Source: Gemmatimonadaceae bacterium (lineage in GTDB: Bacteria > Gemmatimonadota > Gemmatimonadetes > Gemmatimonadales > Gemmatimonadaceae). Taken from it: DNA of 64,000 nucleotides. The stretch covers positions 1 through 64,000 of the forward strand of contig JALHNZ010000004.1 in NCBI GenBank assembly GCA_022843265.1, read 5' to 3'. The notes beneath the pieces were generated by a model. It searched no databases and was not told the origin of the DNA. It was given only the letters and a program-made list of their open reading frames with translations. Shown here piece after piece: positions 5,908 through 14,439 of the stretch. The translations under genes and the position numbers were made by a program. How positions within the stretch are numbered: position 1 is the first letter of the stretch; the number at the start of each line of letters is the position of its first letter.

Positions 5908-7004
5908 CATTCGGTCACTTCTTCCTTCCGGGCCCAACGGACGTGCGCGCCGAAGTTCTCGCAGCACAGTCTGGTCCCATGTTGCCGCATCGCGGCGCCG
6001 ATTTTGAAACGCTGTTCGCGAACATCCAGCGCGGGCTCAAGCTGGTGTTGCGCACCGCGCGTCCGGTGTACGTGTCCACATCGTCGGCGACGGGATTAAT
6101 GGAAGCAGCGGTACGCTGCGCCAAGCCCGGGCCGATTTTGTCGCTCGTGAACGGTGCCTTTGCCGAACGGTTCGCTGATGTTGCACGCTCGTGTGGGCGC
6201 GATGTCACCGTGCTTGAAGCAAAGTGGGGCGATATCGTGCCGCTCGAACAGCTCGAGACGGCGCTGCGCAGCGGTTCGTTTGCGGCAGTCACCGTGGTAC
6301 ACAGTGAAACGAGTACGGGTGCGCTCACGCCGCTGCCGGAACTGGCGGCGCTCTGCGCCAGGCACGGTGCGCTGTCGCTCGTCGACTCGGTCACGGGCGT
6401 CGCTGGTGCGCCAGTCGAGACGGATGACTGGTCGCTGGATTTTGTGTTCACAGGCTCGCAAAAGGCGCTCGCATTGCCGCCCGGCCTCGCGTTTGGCGTG
6501 GCCAGCGAGCGCTATCTCGCGACCGCGCATGAGTCGCCCAACCGCGGTCGGTATTTTGATGTGCTCGAGTTCGAGCAGTACGTGCACAAGAATCAGACGC
6601 CGAATACACCCGCGACGTCGCTGCTCTACGCCGCGGAAACGCAGCTCGAAGCGATTGCACGCGAAACACTGGAAGCGCGCTGGCAGCGTCATGACGACAT
6701 GGCGGATTACACCAACCGCTGGCTTGAGGAAACGCGCGAGGCGCTCGGCGTTGCGCTCTGTACGCAGGCGAGACCCGGTGAGCGTTCACCGACGGTCACG
6801 TGTGTCGCACTTCCTCCAAGCATTCGCGGTGAAGACGTGGTGCGTGAAACCGCTGCGCGCGGCTTCGTGATTGGCGGTGGTTATGGCAAGCTCAAAAGCA
6901 CAGCGTTTCGTATCGGACACATGGGTGATCACACGCTGGCAGGTGTTGCGAACTGTCTTCACGCGGTCCGCGATGCGTTGTCCTCCTTGCGCACACGGAG
7001 TTGA
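5904..7004 (+). CDS. Class V aminotransferase (serine-glyoxylate / phosphoserine type)
   Basis: PLP enzyme of fold type I, 366 residues, in the alanine/serine-glyoxylate aminotransferase family. PLP lysine is Lys187 in FTGSQKALALPPG; Asp161 in LVDSVTG binds the pyridine nitrogen; FLPGPTDVR at 7-15 and PMLPHRG at 25-31 are family signatures. It starts inside the last codons of serB (ATGA overlap). No canonical SerC is present here, so with SerA and SerB it probably supplies the phosphohydroxypyruvate-to-phosphoserine step, as in other lineages where a class V enzyme replaces SerC. Serine-glyoxylate transamination is the alternative, favoured by the GlcD-like oxidase upstream. Confidence 0.85.
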   Translation: MTFGHFFLPGPTDVRAEVLAAQSGPMLPHRGADFETLFANIQRGLKLVLRTARPVYVSTSSATGLMEAAVRCAKPGPILSLVNGAFAERFADVARSCGRDVTVLEAKWGDIVPLEQLETALRSGSFAAVTVVHSETSTGALTPLPELAALCARHGALSLVDSVTGVAGAPVETDDWSLDFVFTGSQKALALPPGLAFGVASERYLATAHESPNRGRYFDVLEFEQYVHKNQTPNTPATSLLYAAETQLEAIARETLEARWQRHDDMADYTNRWLEETREALGVALCTQARPGERSPTVTCVALPPSIRGEDVVRETAARGFVIGGGYGKLKSTAFRIGHMGDHTLAGVANCLHAVRDALSSLRTRS

Positions 7005-7005
7005 G

Positions 7006-7728
7006 ATGTCTGAGTATCAGGGTAAACTTGTTGTCCTAACGGGCGTTGGCCGAAAAGGTCAGGCCGGTGAGATGATCGCGCGCATGTTCGCCGAACGTGG
7101 TGCGGCGCTGGCGTTGCTCGATGTGGCGCCCGACGAAGTCAACGCGCGCGCGGATGAGTTACGCGCCGCTGGTTTTGTCGCCACCGCACACGCCGGGGAT
7201 CTCAGCAACGCGGACGAGGCCATGCGCATCGCGCATGAAGTGCTTACCGCGCACCCGTCGGCGAACGGTGCCGTTCACGCACTCATTAACGCGGCGGGCG
7301 GTTTTGGTATGACCGGCCCGCTGGACACCAGTGATCCTGCACAGTGGCGCAAAATGTTCACCATCAGCGCTGACACTGCGTATTGCGCCACGCGCGCTTT
7401 TCTACCCGCGTTGCGAGCGGGACAAGGTTCCACCGTGTACTTCGCATCAGCCGCCTCACTACCCGGTGGCAACGCCGGCGGTATGGCCGCCTACGCCGGC
7501 GCCAAAAGCGCCGTTCTCACGCTCATGCGCAGCGTAGCGCAAGACGAACGTGAAAAGGGTGTACGTGCAAACGCTGTCGCGCCGGTCGCAATTCGCACCG
7601 CGGCGAACGTGAAATCGATGGGCGAGAAGGACAACTACGTGGACCGCGAGTCCGTCGCCGATGTGTTGCTGTTTCTGTGCAGTCACGCGGCACGGAATGT
7701 GAGTGGCCAGGTGATTGAACTGGCGTAG
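7006..7728 (+). CDS. Short-chain dehydrogenase/reductase (SDR)
   Basis: A 240-residue Rossmann oxidoreductase. The cofactor loop is TGVGRKGQAG (12-21), followed by an Asp39 that suggests NAD(H) preference, NAAG at 95-98, a Ser near 148-151, and the catalytic YxxxK pair Tyr163/Lys167 in AAYAGAKSA. The ATG at 7006 has GGAG five bases upstream and lies 1 base after the preceding stop, so it belongs to the serine cluster operon. The frame is open further upstream but that overlaps the aminotransferase. Substrate unknown. It converges on the next minus-strand gene. Confidence 0.85.
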   Translation: MSEYQGKLVVLTGVGRKGQAGEMIARMFAERGAALALLDVAPDEVNARADELRAAGFVATAHAGDLSNADEAMRIAHEVLTAHPSANGAVHALINAAGGFGMTGPLDTSDPAQWRKMFTISADTAYCATRAFLPALRAGQGSTVYFASAASLPGGNAGGMAAYAGAKSAVLTLMRSVAQDEREKGVRANAVAPVAIRTAANVKSMGEKDNYVDRESVADVLLFLCSHAARNVSGQVIELA

Positions 7729-7759: not shown

Positions 7760-10285
7760 CTACCGCCTCGGCCCTGTCCATACGGCCACAATACCACACG
7801 AGCCACGCAGCGTGAGCGGAATCAGCTCAGCCGGCGCGTTGGCGGTCGACGGATAGATCTCAATCGCCATCACTTCGTTGCCAGGGACGCCAATTGAGTT
7901 TCCCTCTGTGCGCTTACCGTCCACAAGGACTTGCATGCGGCAGTTGCCGCGTCCGTACAGCTGACCGCTCACTACGGTCACATACTGCCGACCGTAGAGC
8001 ACGTTTGCCACGCTGCCGCCAACAAGGCGCAGATCCAATTCTTCGGGTAAAATGAACTCGCCTAGAATTGCCCCCCGCCGCACCTGTGTCATGCGATCGT
8101 AGAATCCGGTGCGCGACAGTGGCGTGTTCCTCGGCGCAATAGTTCGCACCGCACCGAGTTGATTGCCAGCGTGTTCAAGCACCAGCGTAAACGGCTTGTC
8201 GATCCCATTTCGCACAACCTTGCCGTTGTACGGGCGATAACCAATGCGTTGTGCGCGAGCGTCAATCGACAGTCGATCGTCGCTCCCAAGCAGCAACCGA
8301 CCCGTGGAATCCGCGGCGCGCGCTGCGTTGCCCCCCAATGTCACCATCGCGTACGGGATCGGAATACTGTCCGCGTCTACCACGAACAGCATTGTTGGTG
8401 GACGCGTGGCTTCTGTTTCAACCGCCGCGATCTGGCGCGGCAGCGCTTCGATCTGCACGACAAAGGGCGAAGATGTGTTTGCGCGCGTTGCAACACCACG
8501 ATACTGCTGGAAGCCAATGCGCTGCACAAAGACGGGCAGGGTGAGCGCCGACGTGTCGCGCATCGCCAGAATTCCCACCTCATCAGTTGCTCGCACCGAT
8601 CCATCGGGCATCTCGACGCGCGCCGATGACACCGGCTGTCGGGCTTCATCGACTACGCGCAGCAAGGTCACAGCCGCAAGCGCAGGTCGCGGGGGGTCAC
8701 GAGTAAGCACACCCGACACCACTGCGGCAAGTCCACTGTCCACGGCTTGCACCGCGCCCGAAAGATCGACTTGCGCCGAAAGATTCTCTGCGGCAACAGA
8801 AGCCGTTGGCGCCAGCATCAGATCAACGTTGGCCACATGGCGCGTCGGACCGGCGCGCAGGGTCAACGCGGCGCTCTGGTGCGCGTCCGCGCTGAATTGC
8901 ACGTCGACCACTCGGTCAGGCGGCACGCCGCACACGCGATACACTCCGAGAGAATCTGTGCGCACCGTCGTACTATCTCTGTACGCGTCCGCCGCACCGG
9001 TTGCCGAAGGTCGATGTGCCCGCGAGGCACCGCGCCACACAACATGTACGGCAGCATTGGCAAGCGTACCACCACCGACGCCGCGCACAGTTCCGTACAC
9101 AAGCGTGCTTGCGTCTGGCGCGTTCGTGCAGAGTGAGGCATCGACATTCAACTCGATCGGCCCCTGCATGATCGCGCCGGTCTCCGTCACTACATCGGTC
9201 GTTCCCACGGTGTAGCGCATTCGCCCGTTCAGCGACACATCCAGCACTTCACCGGCAATGCGGTGCACGCCCAGCACCGTTTGATGGGCCACCAGATCGC
9301 GCGCGGTCGCAACGACGTGCTGCGCCACACGCGGCATGCGAATTTCCCAACGACTCACGAACCACACGCCGCTGGAGAGTCGTGAGTATTCAACCCATCC
9401 GCCGGGTTTGGTACGTCCTGCGGCCGGGTCGAGTCCCACGTAGCCATACTCCACACGCTGCAGCTCATTCGTTGCACGATCAAGCCACAGCGTGCCTTCC
9501 ACTTCCACAATTCCGCGCCGCATGCGCGCCGGTTTGAAACCCACACCAATCCACTCGTCACGGTCCTCGCTGCCTTCAACCAGATGCACGCAGTAGAGCG
9601 ACAAAAAGCGGTCGTCGACCAGCAGGTCGGCGTCGGGCGCGCGGTACACCGTGCTGCCATCCCGCTGTCTGGCAACGTAGCCCGCAGTGGCGAGTGAATC
9701 GGCCGGCACACTCTGGAACGGTCGCAGCGAGTCGCTCACAAAGTCCGCCGCAAATGAGGACACAAACTCCTGCTCGTTCGCCTTCCACTCTTCGCGAATC
9801 AAACGATAGTGTGTACGTGGACGACCATCTGCCGATACAAGTTGGGAAGCCAGCAGCGCCGTTCGTGCCTGCGCAAAGAGTTGCGCCACCAGCGCCGCAC
9901 CATCAGGGCGCACTTCACACCGCGAATCAACGCGTGATGCAAGCCGCGAAATCATGACCGGAGAATCTTCGAGTGTGCGACTCATCTCATAGCGCGCTCC
10001 GCTCTGCAATCGAACAACACCCAACACTTGTGGCTGTTGTCCAATGCGCAGTGCCCGCACGCGCAGTGAATCGGTGGTCACAACAACCCGATACGTGCCG
10101 GCTTCGCCGGTCACCGTTCGTCCAATCACACGACCGTCGCGCACATCTTCGGCCAGCACCACAACGCCGGGTGCCGGTGCACCATCACTGCGACGCAGCG
10201 TGCCTTGAATCTCCTGCGCGGACAGCGTCGTCGAGCAAAGCGCAGCGCTGAGAACCGAATACACAGCAGCACGAATACGCATCAT
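7760..10285 (-). CDS. Secreted protein with repeated carboxypeptidase-regulatory-like domains and plug-like C-terminus
   Basis: An 841-residue exported protein with a Sec signal peptide ending near TLSAQ (residues 1-23). The mature part holds several CarboxypepD-reg/transthyretin-like beta-sandwiches, recognisable by repeated patterns such as GTLRRSDGAPAPGVVV, GTVRGVGGGTLANAAVHV, DEARQPVSSARVEMPDGS and DADSIPIPYAMVTLGG, each followed by a T/S-D-x-x-G segment. The last 130 residues resemble the TonB-dependent receptor plug (MQVLVDGKR, then GSCGIVAVWTG) but no barrel follows. Such barrel-less proteins are typical of Gemmatimonadota. It is probably anchored at or in the outer membrane, ligand unknown. 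Ten bases separate it from the DUF2269 gene upstream in the same direction. Confidence 0.7.
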   Translation of the reverse strand: MMRIRAAVYSVLSAALCSTTLSAQEIQGTLRRSDGAPAPGVVVLAEDVRDGRVIGRTVTGEAGTYRVVVTTDSLRVRALRIGQQPQVLGVVRLQSGARYEMSRTLEDSPVMISRLASRVDSRCEVRPDGAALVAQLFAQARTALLASQLVSADGRPRTHYRLIREEWKANEQEFVSSFAADFVSDSLRPFQSVPADSLATAGYVARQRDGSTVYRAPDADLLVDDRFLSLYCVHLVEGSEDRDEWIGVGFKPARMRRGIVEVEGTLWLDRATNELQRVEYGYVGLDPAAGRTKPGGWVEYSRLSSGVWFVSRWEIRMPRVAQHVVATARDLVAHQTVLGVHRIAGEVLDVSLNGRMRYTVGTTDVVTETGAIMQGPIELNVDASLCTNAPDASTLVYGTVRGVGGGTLANAAVHVVWRGASRAHRPSATGAADAYRDSTTVRTDSLGVYRVCGVPPDRVVDVQFSADAHQSAALTLRAGPTRHVANVDLMLAPTASVAAENLSAQVDLSGAVQAVDSGLAAVVSGVLTRDPPRPALAAVTLLRVVDEARQPVSSARVEMPDGSVRATDEVGILAMRDTSALTLPVFVQRIGFQQYRGVATRANTSSPFVVQIEALPRQIAAVETEATRPPTMLFVVDADSIPIPYAMVTLGGNAARAADSTGRLLLGSDDRLSIDARAQRIGYRPYNGKVVRNGIDKPFTLVLEHAGNQLGAVRTIAPRNTPLSRTGFYDRMTQVRRGAILGEFILPEELDLRLVGGSVANVLYGRQYVTVVSGQLYGRGNCRMQVLVDGKRTEGNSIGVPGNEVMAIEIYPSTANAPAELIPLTLRGSCGIVAVWTGPRR

Positions 10286-10295
10286 CGCACCTCGA

Positions 10296-10772
10296 TCAGC
10301 CCGGTTTCACCACCATCACCCACACCGCCGCGATCAGCGGTATCGTGGCCACAATACCCCAGAACAACCACCGACGTGCGTCGCGGCGATACGACGCCGG
10401 AATCTCACCGCCGTTCGCAAACGCGCGAGCCTCTCGCGCCTGACGGATCTGTGCGGGCAGCAGCACACACATCCAGAGAAGCGCCGAAAACACGAACAGC
10501 GCCTGCCCCCAAACAAGCCACCGCGGACCGAAAAGTGGAAGCCCGCCAACATACGCGGCACCGTACCCACCAATCACAATCAACGCGATTCCGCCCGCCG
10601 TTAGCCACCAGTCCGTCAGTGTGACCAGTCGCTGCGCAAACGCAATCACGCCTCGGTCGCCCGTCCGATCTGCTGCCACTTTCCACAGCGCCGTCGCGAT
10701 GGCGTTGCCAAGCAGCAAGACAACACCTAGTACATGCACTGCCTTCAGCGAGGAGTAGAGATTCAGATCCAT
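10296..10772 (-). CDS. DUF2269-family integral membrane protein
   Basis: A 158-residue protein with four predicted membrane helices (about 8-28, 47-70, 82-102, 133-154). HVLGVVLLLGNAIATALWK near the N-terminus, the central GGIALIVIGGYG and the RDARRWLFWG loop match the DUF2269 family, whose function is unknown. The ATG at 10772 was chosen because the family begins there; the frame is open to 10832 with unlikely residues. It is probably transcribed with the downstream secreted multi-domain protein. Confidence 0.75.
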   Translation of the reverse strand: MDLNLYSSLKAVHVLGVVLLLGNAIATALWKVAADRTGDRGVIAFAQRLVTLTDWWLTAGGIALIVIGGYGAAYVGGLPLFGPRWLVWGQALFVFSALLWMCVLLPAQIRQAREARAFANGGEIPASYRRDARRWLFWGIVATIPLIAAVWVMVVKPG

Positions 10773-10950
10773 GTTCGTATCGTGACACTGTGAACGAAGG
10801 AATGCACGCGTATGGACACGAAGAAGCTGCATGCCAGCGCGCGCGTCAGTTCCTGTTCTCTGCTGTATTCACGGGACCGCGACGCCGACGCCGTACAAAC
10901 AATCCGCTCCCCTCTGGCGCCTGCAGCCCACCGTACCCAAATTCGCCCGG

Positions 10951-11814
10951 ATGACCCTCGCCGCGCGTCGGCGCCCGGCCGTTCGGGGAGTGGTGCTCGA
11001 TCGCTCTCTGGAGGCCCTGCCGCTATTCCGGCTGAGTGACTCAGCCGACGACTCGCCCGTTGCCTTTACCGCCGACAACGGTGGCCGGTGGCGTGTAATC
11101 GCGGCCCCCGATGATCGCCTGCCCGGAACGTTCGACCAGGACGTCTACGTGGAAATCCTGCATCGTTGGCAGGAAGCCGGCACCCCGGCTGACGGCGCCG
11201 TCTCCTTCACGCTGCACGCCTTCCTGCGCTCCATGGGTCGGCGCGCCGATGGACGCACCTACGAGCAGCTCCGCGGTGCCCTCTCTCGGCTCGAACGCAC
11301 CACGCTCGAGTCCAACGGCGCCTACTGGACGGCCGCGTCGGGCGACAGCCCGGAGATGTCGTTCACTCTGCTCTCCAGCGTGGCCGTACAGCGCCGCCGA
11401 GCCGCTGAACGGGAGCAAATGAACCTCTTCGCCAATCTGGCCACCGGCGAGCCGGGAGACGCGCGCGTGGTGCTCTCCCCCACGCTGCGCGCGAATCTGT
11501 TCTCTCGGCACGTGGTCGCACTGTCGCTCTCGCGATACCACGCGCTGTCGTCCCCCGTGGCGCGTCGGCTCTATCGCCTGCTGGAGGTGGCCCGCGCCGA
11601 GGGGCGCCTGTCGTGGCGCGTTCCTCTCGAACGCCTGGCGGAGCAGCTCCCGCTCTCCCAGCGCTACCCGTCGCACCTGCAACGCGTGTTGCAGCCGGCC
11701 CACGAAATGCTGCTTTCCGCCGGCCTCGTGCGCGACGTGACCATTCGGCAGTACGACCGCAGCTGGTTTGTGGACTACGTGCTCTCGATCCGTCCACGCG
11801 AGGACGTCGAGTAA
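10951..11814 (+). CDS. Plasmid-type replication initiator (RPA family)
   Basis: Resembles the replication initiator protein A (RPA/RepA) family of plasmids. After an Arg-rich start the conserved block PLFRLSDSADDSPVAF / WRVIAAPDDRLPGTFDQDVY is seen, then FTLHAFLRSMGRRADGRTY, LSRLERTTLESNGAYW, and a second winged-helix-like part (SRYHALSSPVARRLYRLLEVA). 287 residues from the ATG at 10951; the frame is open to 10831, where a GAAG element precedes an ATG, but the 40 extra residues look less protein-like. No iterons are evident in the 127 bases downstream. Beside it lies a toxin-antitoxin pair, so a relic of an integrated plasmid is possible; a chromosomal regulatory role is the alternative. Confidence 0.7.
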   Translation: MTLAARRRPAVRGVVLDRSLEALPLFRLSDSADDSPVAFTADNGGRWRVIAAPDDRLPGTFDQDVYVEILHRWQEAGTPADGAVSFTLHAFLRSMGRRADGRTYEQLRGALSRLERTTLESNGAYWTAASGDSPEMSFTLLSSVAVQRRRAAEREQMNLFANLATGEPGDARVVLSPTLRANLFSRHVVALSLSRYHALSSPVARRLYRLLEVARAEGRLSWRVPLERLAEQLPLSQRYPSHLQRVLQPAHEMLLSAGLVRDVTIRQYDRSWFVDYVLSIRPREDVE

Positions 11815-11936
11815 CCGAGCCCTGGTCCGCATGGGTTTGATACGCGCAGCAGGGAAATGGTGACGGGCCTGAGCGCACGCGAGGCCATCATATTCACAGC
11901 GCACTTCAACCACACCAACACCTCCTCACCGCGACG

Positions 11937-11971
11937 TTGACATGTGGAAAACATGCACGCATGTTTATCAC
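11937..11971 (+). promoter_or_regulatory. Promoter and palindromic operator of the toxin-antitoxin pair
   Basis: TTGACA at 11937-11942, a 17-base spacer, and CATGTT at 11960-11965 form a promoter candidate. Overlapping it is an inverted repeat, AAACATGC-AC-GCATGTTT at 11949-11966, with perfect 8-base arms. Antitoxins of this class bind such repeats to repress their own operon. The predicted transcript start coincides with the antitoxin ATG at 11972. Confidence 0.65.
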
Positions 11972-12202
11972 ATGCCAAAAATGATCCAGATCCGACACGT
12001 ATCCGACACGCTCCACCGCACGCTCAAAGTGCGCGCCACTGAGGCCGACATGACCCTCTCCGACTACATCAAAGCCGAGCTCGAACGTATGGCGGCTCGC
12101 CCCACGCTCGACCAGATCGCCGCCCGCCTGAGCGCCCTCGAACCCGTCGAGCCGCGCGAGTCCGTCGTGGACATGCTGCACGAGGCGCGGGACGCGAGGT
12201 GA
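11972..12202 (+). CDS. FitA/VapB-like ribbon-helix-helix antitoxin
   Basis: A 76-residue protein. The N-terminal IQIRHVSDTLHRTLKVRA followed by MTLSDYIKAELERM is the ribbon-helix-helix DNA-binding fold of FitA-like antitoxins (residues about 4-35); the C-terminal tail would wrap the toxin. It should bind the palindrome just upstream and neutralise the PIN toxin encoded next. The frame stays open to 11942, but those codons lie inside the operator, so ATG 11972 (or 11981) is preferred. The gene overlaps the toxin start by 4 bases. Confidence 0.82.
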   Translation: MPKMIQIRHVSDTLHRTLKVRATEADMTLSDYIKAELERMAARPTLDQIAARLSALEPVEPRESVVDMLHEARDAR

Positions 12203-12627
12203 TCGCCACGGCGGTCGCATTGCCGCGCAACTCGGCCATTGTGCTCGATGCGTCAGTGGTGGTGGAGACGCTCCTCAACTCGAACGCCGGAAAACACGTC
12301 ATGGCGCGCCTGATTGCTGCTGACGCCGAGCTCCACGCGCCCGAGTTGCTCGACATCGAAGTCTTGCACGTACTACGACGTCTCGTGCGTCAGGGTGCGA
12401 TGACTGAACGTCGCGCCCAAGAGGCGCTGGTCCTGCTTGATGCGCTGCCCCTCACGAGACATCGGCACGCCGCACTCACGCATCGGTGCTGGCAACTGCG
12501 CGCCAACCTCTCGGCGTACGACGCCACCTACGTAGCGTTGGCTGAAGGACTGGGGGCATCACTACTCACACGTGACGCGCGTCTCGCGCGCGCCCCAGGA
12601 GTGGCCGCTCTCATCGAAGTCATGTAG
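12199..12627 (+). CDS. VapC/FitB-type PIN-domain toxin
   Basis: A 142-residue PIN-domain ribonuclease, expected to cleave RNA with Mg2+ or Mn2+. The acidic residues are visible: Asp17 in VLDASVVVE, Glu49/Glu54 in APELLDIEVLHVLR, Asp108 in LSAYDATYVALAE, and Asp126 in LLTRDARLA. It starts with GTG in a GTGA overlap with the antitoxin stop, the usual order and coupling of type II pairs. All active-site acids are present, so it looks intact. Confidence 0.87.
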   Translation: MIATAVALPRNSAIVLDASVVVETLLNSNAGKHVMARLIAADAELHAPELLDIEVLHVLRRLVRQGAMTERRAQEALVLLDALPLTRHRHAALTHRCWQLRANLSAYDATYVALAEGLGASLLTRDARLARAPGVAALIEVM

Positions 12628-12822: not shown

Positions 12823-14439
12823 ATGACCCGCTTCCGCAAAACCGCCCTCGTGGCTGGTTTCCTCGTGGTCCCAGTGCTCGCTGGCGGCTTCGCGCTGCAG
12901 GCGCGCGATGTGCGCGGTGGGGCGCAGCTCCTCGACCAGGTGCTCACCTTCGTACACATGCGCTACGTCGACACACTCGACGCGAATGCACTTTACGAAA
13001 AGGCCGCGCGCGGTCTGGTGAAAGAACTCGGCGATCCGTACACCGAGCTCTTCTCGCCCAAGCAGATGGAAGAATTCACCCGCAATACGAACGGCCGCTA
13101 CGCCGGCCTCGGCATGGAAATCACGCCGATCGGAAACTACGTGACCGTGGGCAAAGTCTTTCCAGACACGCCGGCGGAGCGCGGTGGTGTCATGGAAGGC
13201 GACGCGATCGTACAGATCGACACCTTCCCGGCCCGAGGTTGGACCACGCAGCAGGTACAGAACAAGCTGCTCGGCGTGCCGGGAACGCAGGTTCGCGTGA
13301 CCTTCGGCCGCCCAGGCGTGCCGGAGCCGATCACCATGAACTTCCGCCGCGCCGAGGTAAAGGTGCCGGCCGTGCGGTACACGCTCATGCTCGACGAACG
13401 TACCGGTTACATCCCGATTGAACGTTTCAGCGAAAACACCACGAGCGATGTGGCCAAGGCGGTTGAGTCGCTCAAGGCGCGCGGCGCCAAGGGAATTGTG
13501 CTCGACGTGCGCGGCAACCCGGGCGGCATTCTCGACCAGGCCATCTCCACCACCAACCTCTTCCTGCCTGCGGGCAAGGAAGTGGCCAGCGTGCGTGGTC
13601 GGGGCGACGTGCAGAACTTTGTCTCCGAGAATCAGCCCATTGCCGCGGACATTCCCCTGGTCGTGCTGACCGACGGCGGCTCGGCGTCAGCCTCGGAAAT
13701 CGTGGCGGGCGCGCTGCAGGATTATGATCGCGCCCTCGTGATCGGGACCACGTCGTTCGGCAAGGGACTCGTGCAGTCACTGTATCCGCTCGACGGGGGG
13801 TATGCGCTCAAGATCACCACGGGCAAGTGGTACACACCCAGCGGCCGCAGCATTCAGAAAGATCGCAAGCAGGGGGACGCGTTTGTACTTGATGCGATTG
13901 CCGACACGGTGGTTACGGACACCTCCCGCAACGATCGCCCGGTATACAAGTCGAGCAGCGGCCGCGTGGTGTATGGTGGCGGCGGCATCACGCCCGATGT
14001 CATGATCGTGCCGGACACGATCAGCTCCGCCGAACAGGCTGTGCGTCGCATTCTCCTGCCCAAAATGGGCGCGGTGTTCAGCATCGTGGGCGAAATTGCC
14101 TTGGAGCTCAAGGGCAAGGTGTCGCCGGACTTTACGCTGCAGCCTGAGTGGATCAACACGTTCTACACGCGCCTCGATACGGCCGGCGTGAAGATCGACC
14201 GCCCAGCGTGGGAAGCCGGTCGCCGCGAGGCGGAGCGGTATCTCGAGCGGCAAATCGCCCGCACCGCGTTCGGCGATACGCTCACCAAGCGTCGCGAGAT
14301 CAAGGACGACAACCAGCTCAGCAAGGCCATGGAACTGCTTCGCAAGGGCAATACGCAGAGCGAGTTGTTCGTGGCGGCCAAGGCGGATGCCGCCAAGCCG
14401 GTCGCTCGCACGGGCGCAAACCGAGGCGGCGCGCAGTAA
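12823..14439 (+). CDS. S41-family C-terminal processing peptidase
   Basis: A 538-residue serine protease of the CtpA/Prc family, acting in the periplasm. Order: N-terminal signal anchor (about 8-27), helical cap (DPYTELFSPKQ), PDZ domain (GLGMEITPIGNYVTVGKV to about residue 170), then the protease core with LDVRGNPGGIL, the catalytic Ser region GSASASEIVAG near 286-296, and the catalytic Lys in TSFGKGLVQS (Lys314). A long charged C-terminal helix follows. The ATG at 12823 has GAGG six bases upstream; a TTG at 12811 is less likely. Preceded by a 195-base gap with no gene. Target proteins unknown. Confidence 0.92.
   Translation: MTRFRKTALVAGFLVVPVLAGGFALQARDVRGGAQLLDQVLTFVHMRYVDTLDANALYEKAARGLVKELGDPYTELFSPKQMEEFTRNTNGRYAGLGMEITPIGNYVTVGKVFPDTPAERGGVMEGDAIVQIDTFPARGWTTQQVQNKLLGVPGTQVRVTFGRPGVPEPITMNFRRAEVKVPAVRYTLMLDERTGYIPIERFSENTTSDVAKAVESLKARGAKGIVLDVRGNPGGILDQAISTTNLFLPAGKEVASVRGRGDVQNFVSENQPIAADIPLVVLTDGGSASASEIVAGALQDYDRALVIGTTSFGKGLVQSLYPLDGGYALKITTGKWYTPSGRSIQKDRKQGDAFVLDAIADTVVTDTSRNDRPVYKSSSGRVVYGGGGITPDVMIVPDTISSAEQAVRRILLPKMGAVFSIVGEIALELKGKVSPDFTLQPEWINTFYTRLDTAGVKIDRPAWEAGRREAERYLERQIARTAFGDTLTKRREIKDDNQLSKAMELLRKGNTQSELFVAAKADAAKPVARTGANRGGAQ

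Follow-up and report, generated by a model that had tools for sequence, protein, structure and literature searches.

A plasmid-type replication initiator gene resident in the chromosome of Gemmatimonadaceae carries a candidate sliding-clamp motif

Our analysis of a 64,000-nucleotide stretch of a Gemmatimonadaceae genome (hereafter the window; contig JALHNZ010000004.1, assembly GCA_022843265.1) revealed that rep, a gene for a plasmid-type replication initiator at positions 10951-11814 of the plus strand, is an old and permanent chromosomal gene of this family, whose members live in soil and water. Its domestication is supported, and the best explanation, to which we assign a probability of roughly 0.48, a little short of even odds, is that a domesticated plasmid-type initiator has become a clamp-tethered DNA-binding factor in chromosome replication. 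An earlier note on the window had described rep together with an antitoxin and a toxin gene and had suggested a relic of an integrated plasmid or a domesticated module; the positions of the three genes were confirmed, and the two suggestions fared very differently.

The gene encodes a 287-aa two-winged-helix protein of the RPA type (RepA/TrfA-like), an assignment already made in the earlier note and borne out by a score of 70.1 bits against the Pfam family PF10134 (RPA; cut-off 27). Its ATG at 10951 is the start common to two sister species (MTLAARRRP), and the stop codon ends at 11814; a longer open reading frame, from 10831, is also present. The AlphaFold2 model (65 sequences) reached a mean pLDDT of 87.8 and a pTM of 0.86, and fold comparison with VIA-align returned as its best row a Rep protein with single-stranded origin DNA (8ac8_A; Z 17.6), together with RepE54 bound to iteron DNA (1rep_C; Z 17.3, 206 residues, rmsd 3.4), RctB (Z 15.5), and Pi (Z 15.5). 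Both winged helices of the iteron-initiator fold, WH1 and WH2, are retained in the predicted structure, and the conserved blocks of the protein include residues 44-68, 97-108, 202-209, and 234-251, the last of which sits in the WH2 helix expected to read DNA. The two-winged-helix fold is held in common with RepE of the F plasmid, Pi of R6K, and RctB of Vibrio chromosome 2, at an identity of only 10-16%. No ATPase domain match was found in rep with Pfam and no match at E 0.1 in PHROGs, PADLOC, or NCBIfam; a profile search of PDB sequences gave a single meaningless row, and a pattern-limited scan of viral contigs detected no relatives. Phages yielded one weak match to rep, and viral fold matches were remote. 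We found no publication on this gene in the openly licensed literature.

Plasmid relatives of rep, at about 25-33% identity (20 matches listed of 76 plasmid records), come from Rubrobacter, Deinococcus, and others. Seven of them, compared at full length, measure 363-483 aa and extend past WH2, whereas the chromosomal protein ends after WH2, at about 285 aa. The C-terminal tail of two of the three relatives scanned, both from Rubrobacter, resembles the DnaA N-terminal domain, with scores (24.2 and 23.9 bits) below the Pfam cut-off of 24.6. TrfA of RK2 and the TrfA/RepA proteins (PF10134) of Rubrobacter and Deinococcus plasmids have a WH1-WH2 core homologous to that of rep, RK2 TrfA itself not being part of the alignment. 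Unlike these plasmid systems, rep is chromosomal, has no shared iterons and no adjoining par genes, and lacks the C-terminal tail of the seven relatives compared.

The distribution of rep followed the family closely. In a phylum-wide sample of 395 genomes, it occurred in 130 of 140 Gemmatimonadaceae and in 1 of 255 others, there as a weak partial match, and a class-wide sample of 295 genomes placed it in 69 of 75 family genomes, with 2 marginal matches outside the family; family totals were counted from a genome list sorted by kinship. Not all of the 130 matches were whole, since some were cut by contig ends or split (G066, G152, G178, G319, G390, and G406 among them), and the one in G178 shows a stop codon. 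There is nearly always one copy, with two full-length copies in G323 and additional weak matches to proteins of about 600 aa in G060, G172, and G302. The 10 family genomes without rep also lack a MerR gene linked to it, and their best matches to the S41 peptidase encoded downstream of rep reach 35-48% identity, with none in one genome and the 48% case in a different neighbourhood; MerR being absent and S41 matches only distant, the rep locus is probably missing from these 10 assemblies rather than truly lost, and no clean deletion was seen. Most of the named loci (here and throughout the best 80 of 137) bear the title Gemmatimonas, Gemmatimonadaceae, or Gemmatimonadetes, and one is titled Kuenenia. 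In a tree of 44 rep rows, all 9 genera with at least two rows were monophyletic, and the join to the plasmid proteins, which has long branches, is untrustworthy. Estimates of dN/dS were 0.04-0.10 in 18 pairs within two genera, with dS high in several pairs, and rep is under purifying selection.

The position of rep is also conserved. An S41 (Ctp-type) peptidase gene (12823-14439, plus strand; PF03572; start set by comparison with relatives) is its constant downstream neighbour, following rep in the same orientation in 20 of 20 relatives and in all 73 of the best 80 of 137 named loci that have room for it, at a distance below 2.5 kb in 72 of them and of 2.77 kb in one. The usual upstream neighbour is an SDR gene (6949-7728, plus strand; PF13561; start approximate), which shares the strand of rep and lies within 1.5 kb of it in 42 of the 72 loci with room (best 80 of 137). 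In the sister species G259 and G223, the SDR gene is followed by rep within about 100 bases and rep by the S41 gene after about 330 bases. The window genome departs from this order twice: a 3.1-kb segment with two minus-strand genes (7760-10832), encoding a carboxypeptidase-regulatory-like protein and a DUF2269 protein and absent there in G259 and G223, separates the SDR gene from rep, and the toxin-antitoxin pair separates rep from the S41 gene. A further locus of the same genus (L094) has an oppositely oriented DUF2269 relative 70 bases upstream of rep, which indicates that the gap between the SDR gene and rep is a variable spot.

A recent integrated-plasmid relic, with the toxin-antitoxin pair brought in by the same element, would explain why an initiator stands beside an addiction-type pair among unrelated genes, and PF10134 is named for plasmid initiators. 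We leave this reading next to no chance, however, as rep holds its place family-wide beside the same S41 gene, is under purifying selection, and follows the genera in its tree, whereas the pair is absent at the locus in the relatives examined and the GC content there is ordinary. Conserved synteny, tree, and selection rule the relic out; conservation at one place in relatives was also what the earlier note had named as speaking for an ancient chromosomal role. A search for tRNA genes near the locus found none within 5-20 kb.

The pair consists of a probable RHH antitoxin gene (FitA/VapB-like; 11972-12202, plus strand) and a gene for a VapC-type PIN-domain toxin (12199-12627, plus strand). The toxin matched PF01850 at 55.5 bits (cut-off 23.6), and its translation contains the acidic residues D..E..D..D, which we take to be the PIN-toxin acidic motif, while the antitoxin scored 21.9 bits as a FitA-like RHH protein, below the cut-off of 27 (E 1.7e-4). 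An antitoxin start at 11942, as in the open reading frame list, would fall inside the probable operator, so that 11972 is likelier. This operator, a dyad at 11942-11973 with 12 of 14 arm positions matching, had been called intact in the earlier note; the dyad is there, and it stands only modestly beyond chance, because among 335 segments of 191 bases taken from this sequence, 10 score as high or higher. A PIN toxin, a putative RHH-like antitoxin, and a dyad in front are the same as in VapBC/FitAB systems, of which the window pair is an ordinary private copy, with no functional link to rep found. Neither gene had a match at the rep locus in 20 relatives (E 1e-5) or in the best 80 of 137 named loci (E 1e-4), 73 of which include over 1.2 kb of sequence after rep; the two sets overlap in many species. 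Alignment showed that homology to the two sister species restarts just past the toxin, at about 12690. Elsewhere, the toxin is sporadic, occurring in 6 of 59 other relatives' genomes and in none of four genomes of the same genus, and it matches 7 plasmid records at 34-45% identity, 6 of them annotated as VapC. These comparisons identify the pair as an independent, recent insertion unrelated to rep. The comparison with close genomes proposed in the earlier note thus returned a split answer, the pair being an insertion and rep not; rep and the pair do not form one block, as the pair was at the rep locus in no relative examined, and the idea of a domesticated module is supported for rep and not for the pair.

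The neighbourhood of rep bears on another reading, in which rep, a domesticated winged-helix DNA-binding protein, is a local transcription regulator of its own or neighbouring genes, and a conserved QLxLF-like stretch between its winged helices serves structure or some other interaction rather than clamp binding. Autorepression is common among iteron initiators, a habit that we counted in favour of this reading. It also gains from the placement of rep close behind the SDR gene in 42 of 72 loci and ahead of the S41 gene in 73 of 73 (best 80 of 137), and from the lack of replication features at the locus. However, an ECF-sigma-like promoter (GGAAC-N15-17-CGT) precedes the S41 gene in 17 of 30 non-redundant loci, compared with a mean of 0.28 and a maximum of 3 in 200 shuffles and with 1 on the reverse strand. 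A promoter of its own before the S41 gene argues against rep as its mere regulator, and, with an upstream gene that varies, leaves no fixed target operon. The conservation of QxxLF in a disordered loop would likewise go unexplained, and we consider a purely local role unlikely, if well above negligible. A search for an operator of rep by dyad counting gave an upstream signal that beat shuffled sequences and was rejected, as it was read as codons of the SDR gene, so that this counting upstream of rep identified no DNA target. Against a replication role for rep, its neighbours are metabolic and peptidase genes rather than replication genes, one genus excepted. In one genus, G136 (L040) encodes another DnaA-like protein, of 388 aa, some 3 kb away from rep, and a similar match stands 3 kb from rep in G323, a slight hint of a link between rep and DnaA.

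The chromosome-like setting proposed in the earlier note was confirmed by several relatives in which rep, dnaA, and parB share a single contig of several megabases. Of 30 genomes listed with rep and the main dnaA on the same contig, 28 have rep in antiparallel orientation to dnaA and 57-295 kb downstream of it, the exceptions being G148 and G302. In 18 of 19 genomes, the chromosomal parB stands between the two at a distance of 16-39 kb from dnaA, and the distance from parB to rep is 39-258 kb in 18 of 19 genomes and greater in G148, with no partition genes adjoining rep. Sites resembling parS occur within 2 kb of parB in 19 of 20 genomes, the exception being G016. In the window genome, contig C12 carries parB (C12:1231) and dnaA (C12:44076) and, at its base 165, a parS-like site with 2 mismatches; a second such site is found on contig C4, 365 bases short of its end. 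A backwards parS control pattern gave 4 matches against 3 in this genome, and the C4 site taken by itself may therefore be a chance match. If C4 and C12 adjoin, as we infer, the distance from rep to dnaA would be about 177 kb, with the two genes oriented as usual.

A DnaA_C match was detected in the window genome and in 79 of 98 other family genomes sampled, with assembly gaps the likely explanation for the other 19, and DciA was present in 19 of 19 genomes tested, which rules out rep as a replacement of DciA. In a genus seemingly without dnaA and represented by four genomes, a search with the ATPase domain recovered a genuine dnaA in G286, where a contig end truncates the gene, and the remaining three genomes yielded none; we treat these absences as assembly gaps and not as replacement of DnaA by rep. 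With DnaA and the helicase loader DciA both present, rep is not the sole initiator and replaces neither.

Rep could instead be a working second initiator at a cryptic chromosomal site, like RctB on Vibrio chromosome 2. The full WH1-WH2 fold, as in RepE and RctB, agrees with this reading, as do a clamp motif like that of TrfA and the fact that plasmid initiators are the closest known relatives. RepE, Pi, and RctB work at iteron origins, and RctB starts a second chromosome; unlike at those origins, no iterons were seen at rep. The earlier note had found none close by, and our search of the window from 7 to 17 kb, likewise without an array, upheld this. Arrays of at least 3 copies with a period of 10-40, sought from 400 bases upstream to 500 downstream of rep, occurred in 3 of 21 loci (L036, L039, and L047; the window, one of the 21, has none) and in 1 of the best 80 of 137 named loci (L097, with the row L112 set aside as an artefact), compared with 3 of 141 control pieces elsewhere. 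There is no iteron set common to the rep loci of the family, a result that weighs against a second initiator. Tandem arrays do stand directly upstream of rep in single species (e.g., G039, G148), which counts for it. Several candidate repeats were rejected: the 15-bp array immediately preceding rep in G039 is not common to most relatives, iteron-like 21-bp repeats 9 kb from rep in the same genome were read as lying inside a coding repeat, and GGTCGGA-type repeats between rep and the S41 gene in G116 and G146 proved to be dispersed, with 40 and 41 matches counted, and are spread genome-wide in G146.

GC skew, which is weak and was read in pieces of five genomes, did not place the origin sharply, and its switch never fell at rep itself. 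In G090, the sign change, at about 45-50 kb, adjoins parS (40.8 kb) and is far from rep (296 kb); that of G105 is likewise near parS, about 65 kb short of rep, and both genomes speak against an origin at rep. In G008, the change falls between parS and rep, about 20 kb past the former and 30 kb short of the latter, and the skew of G039 is near zero from about 20 to 170 kb. In G203, the change at about 50-58 kb also falls between the two, closer to rep (76.5 kb, about 20 kb away) than to parS (21.6 kb), which counts for an origin on the rep side. No cluster of DnaA boxes was found in the pieces of G203 and G039. The tail of the plasmid relatives, DnaA N-terminal-like in two of three at scores below the cut-off, is moreover missing from rep. 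A second origin at rep is weakened by these results, and we judge it quite improbable.

The reading that we prefer, a domesticated initiator working through the sliding clamp, draws on a short motif in the linker between the winged helices. The QMNLF codons (11416-11430, plus strand; residues 156-160) encode a candidate sliding-clamp-binding motif in the disordered WH1-WH2 loop, where residues 152-164 of the AlphaFold2 model have a pLDDT below 50. The pattern Q[LMF]x[LF]F was present in all of the best 80 of 137 named loci and in 20 of 20 other loci, many from the same species. Among the best 80 of 137, the variants were QLHLF (21), QLALF (19), QFTLF (12), QLTLF (9), and QLPLF (5), with QMNLF, QLQLF, and QLSFF (3 each), QLSLF and QFALF (2 each), and QFPLF (1) rarer. 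Across 65 aligned rows, Q156 and F160 are invariant and L159 is kept in 63, while positions 158, 161, and 162 vary. Only 0.8% of shuffled versions of the window rep sequence contain the motif, and among the 51 open reading frames of the window, it is found in one, rep itself. The seven plasmid relatives have a shorter loop that lacks the motif, and one of them has a looser QVDIF elsewhere. The bacterial clamp-binding consensus is QL(S/D)LF, with further variation possible (PMC9690074); the third position in rep is mostly neither S nor D. RK2 TrfA is described as likewise having such a motif, at residues 137-138, and as binding the clamp through it in a complex that is the key feature for its replisome assembly in vitro (PMC4980987); the motif of rep lies between the winged helices. 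Other residues of the rep linker are also conserved (RRR 148-150 and EPG 167-169), so part of the motif's conservation could be structural. The pattern suggests that rep docks onto the sliding clamp DnaN; this case is built from a short motif and its conservation, and motif matches alone do not show binding.

A coherent sequence of events can be proposed on this basis. An ancient plasmid-type initiator would have been fixed in the chromosome of the Gemmatimonadaceae ancestor and retained since. Its motif would bind the replication sliding clamp DnaN, its winged helices would recognise a specific chromosomal sequence, and the clamp would bring the protein to newly copied DNA or keep it nearby. 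In this way, rep may couple the passage of the fork to initiation control, a link that Hda makes in a different way, or to some other replication-coupled event. Given that rep has DNA-binding domains and a probable clamp dock but no plasmid-type tail, a clamp-recruited DNA-binding protein is the simplest mechanism. That rep is a family-wide plasmid initiator turned resident clamp-tethered replication regulator, different from Hda, YabA, and SeqA, with the tail absent and the winged helices kept, is a proposal we make tentatively and with real reservations. Hda, in the RIDA system, is a non-polymerase protein that works via the clamp, and the motif is the reason for proposing the same of rep; Hda is DnaA-like (PMC9690074), whereas rep is a winged-helix DNA-binding protein without an ATPase domain match. 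The domesticated phage helicase loaders DnaC and DnaI set a precedent for a mobile-element replication gene turned chromosomal (PMC5109545). DnaC and DnaI displaced dciA, whereas in genomes with rep, DciA is present (19 of 19) and DnaA is found in most.

These results caution that the label "plasmid replication initiator" on a Gemmatimonadaceae contig does not denote a plasmid, which matters for the sorting of plasmids from metagenomes. Replication control is known in detail in a few model bacteria, and the openly licensed literature yielded almost no replication biology for Gemmatimonadota. For this family, rep offers a conserved candidate replication factor whose evolutionary origin is clear and whose proposed partner, DnaN, can be tested. 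If the proposed role is true, it would be another kind of case, after DnaC and DnaI, of a mobile-element replication gene joining the machinery of its host.

Three RPA-like proteins of about 600 aa with a long C-terminal region (L241 in genome G172, L242 in G060 and L243 in G302) were found to be distinct from the family-wide rep, the chromosomal RPA-type initiator-like gene, and are possibly true plasmid or element initiators. Two of these larger proteins were scanned against PF10134, and L241 alone scored above the cut-off.

Proteins resembling DnaA also occurred in the relatives. One of 631 aa (L245; G203, contig C1:1400074-1401609) carries the DnaA-type AAA+ domain (PF00308) doubled in tandem, and the DnaA C-terminal domain family was absent from the best 25 families listed for it in a profile scan. 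Closely spaced pairs of PF00308 matches resembling this arrangement were detected in 16 of 21 genomes searched. In one genus, a DnaA-like protein of 388 aa with both AAA+ and C-terminal parts is encoded near the rep-S41-TolB genes (L040:5795-6961, genome G136), as is a DnaA-like match in a second genome (G323, contig C229:861-1061).

A 15-bp tandem array lies immediately 5' of rep in one species (L039; G039, contig C1, ~204252-204353), and a repeat scan of the rep loci showed most relatives to be without it there. The rep locus typical of Gemmatimonadaceae is also present, with 81% identity, in a record titled Candidatus Kuenenia stuttgartiensis (L095), which is probably mislabelled or a mixed bin.

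Between rep and the downstream S41 peptidase gene, a small conserved ORF, whose product begins approximately MxTKLEKTxxREIxIxG, is present in 22 of the 80 named loci (best of 137; e.g., L116, L118, L122), and also in L047-L049 and L051. In two species (G146 and G116), the rep-S41 gap holds copies of a dispersed GGTCGGA-type intergenic repeat family, with ~40 matches per genome. An ECF-sigma-like promoter, GGAAC-N15-17-CGT, precedes S41 in 17 of 30 non-redundant loci, 18-50 bases from its start in 15 of those 17. Such promoters suggest that Gemmatimonadaceae have an envelope-stress regulon.
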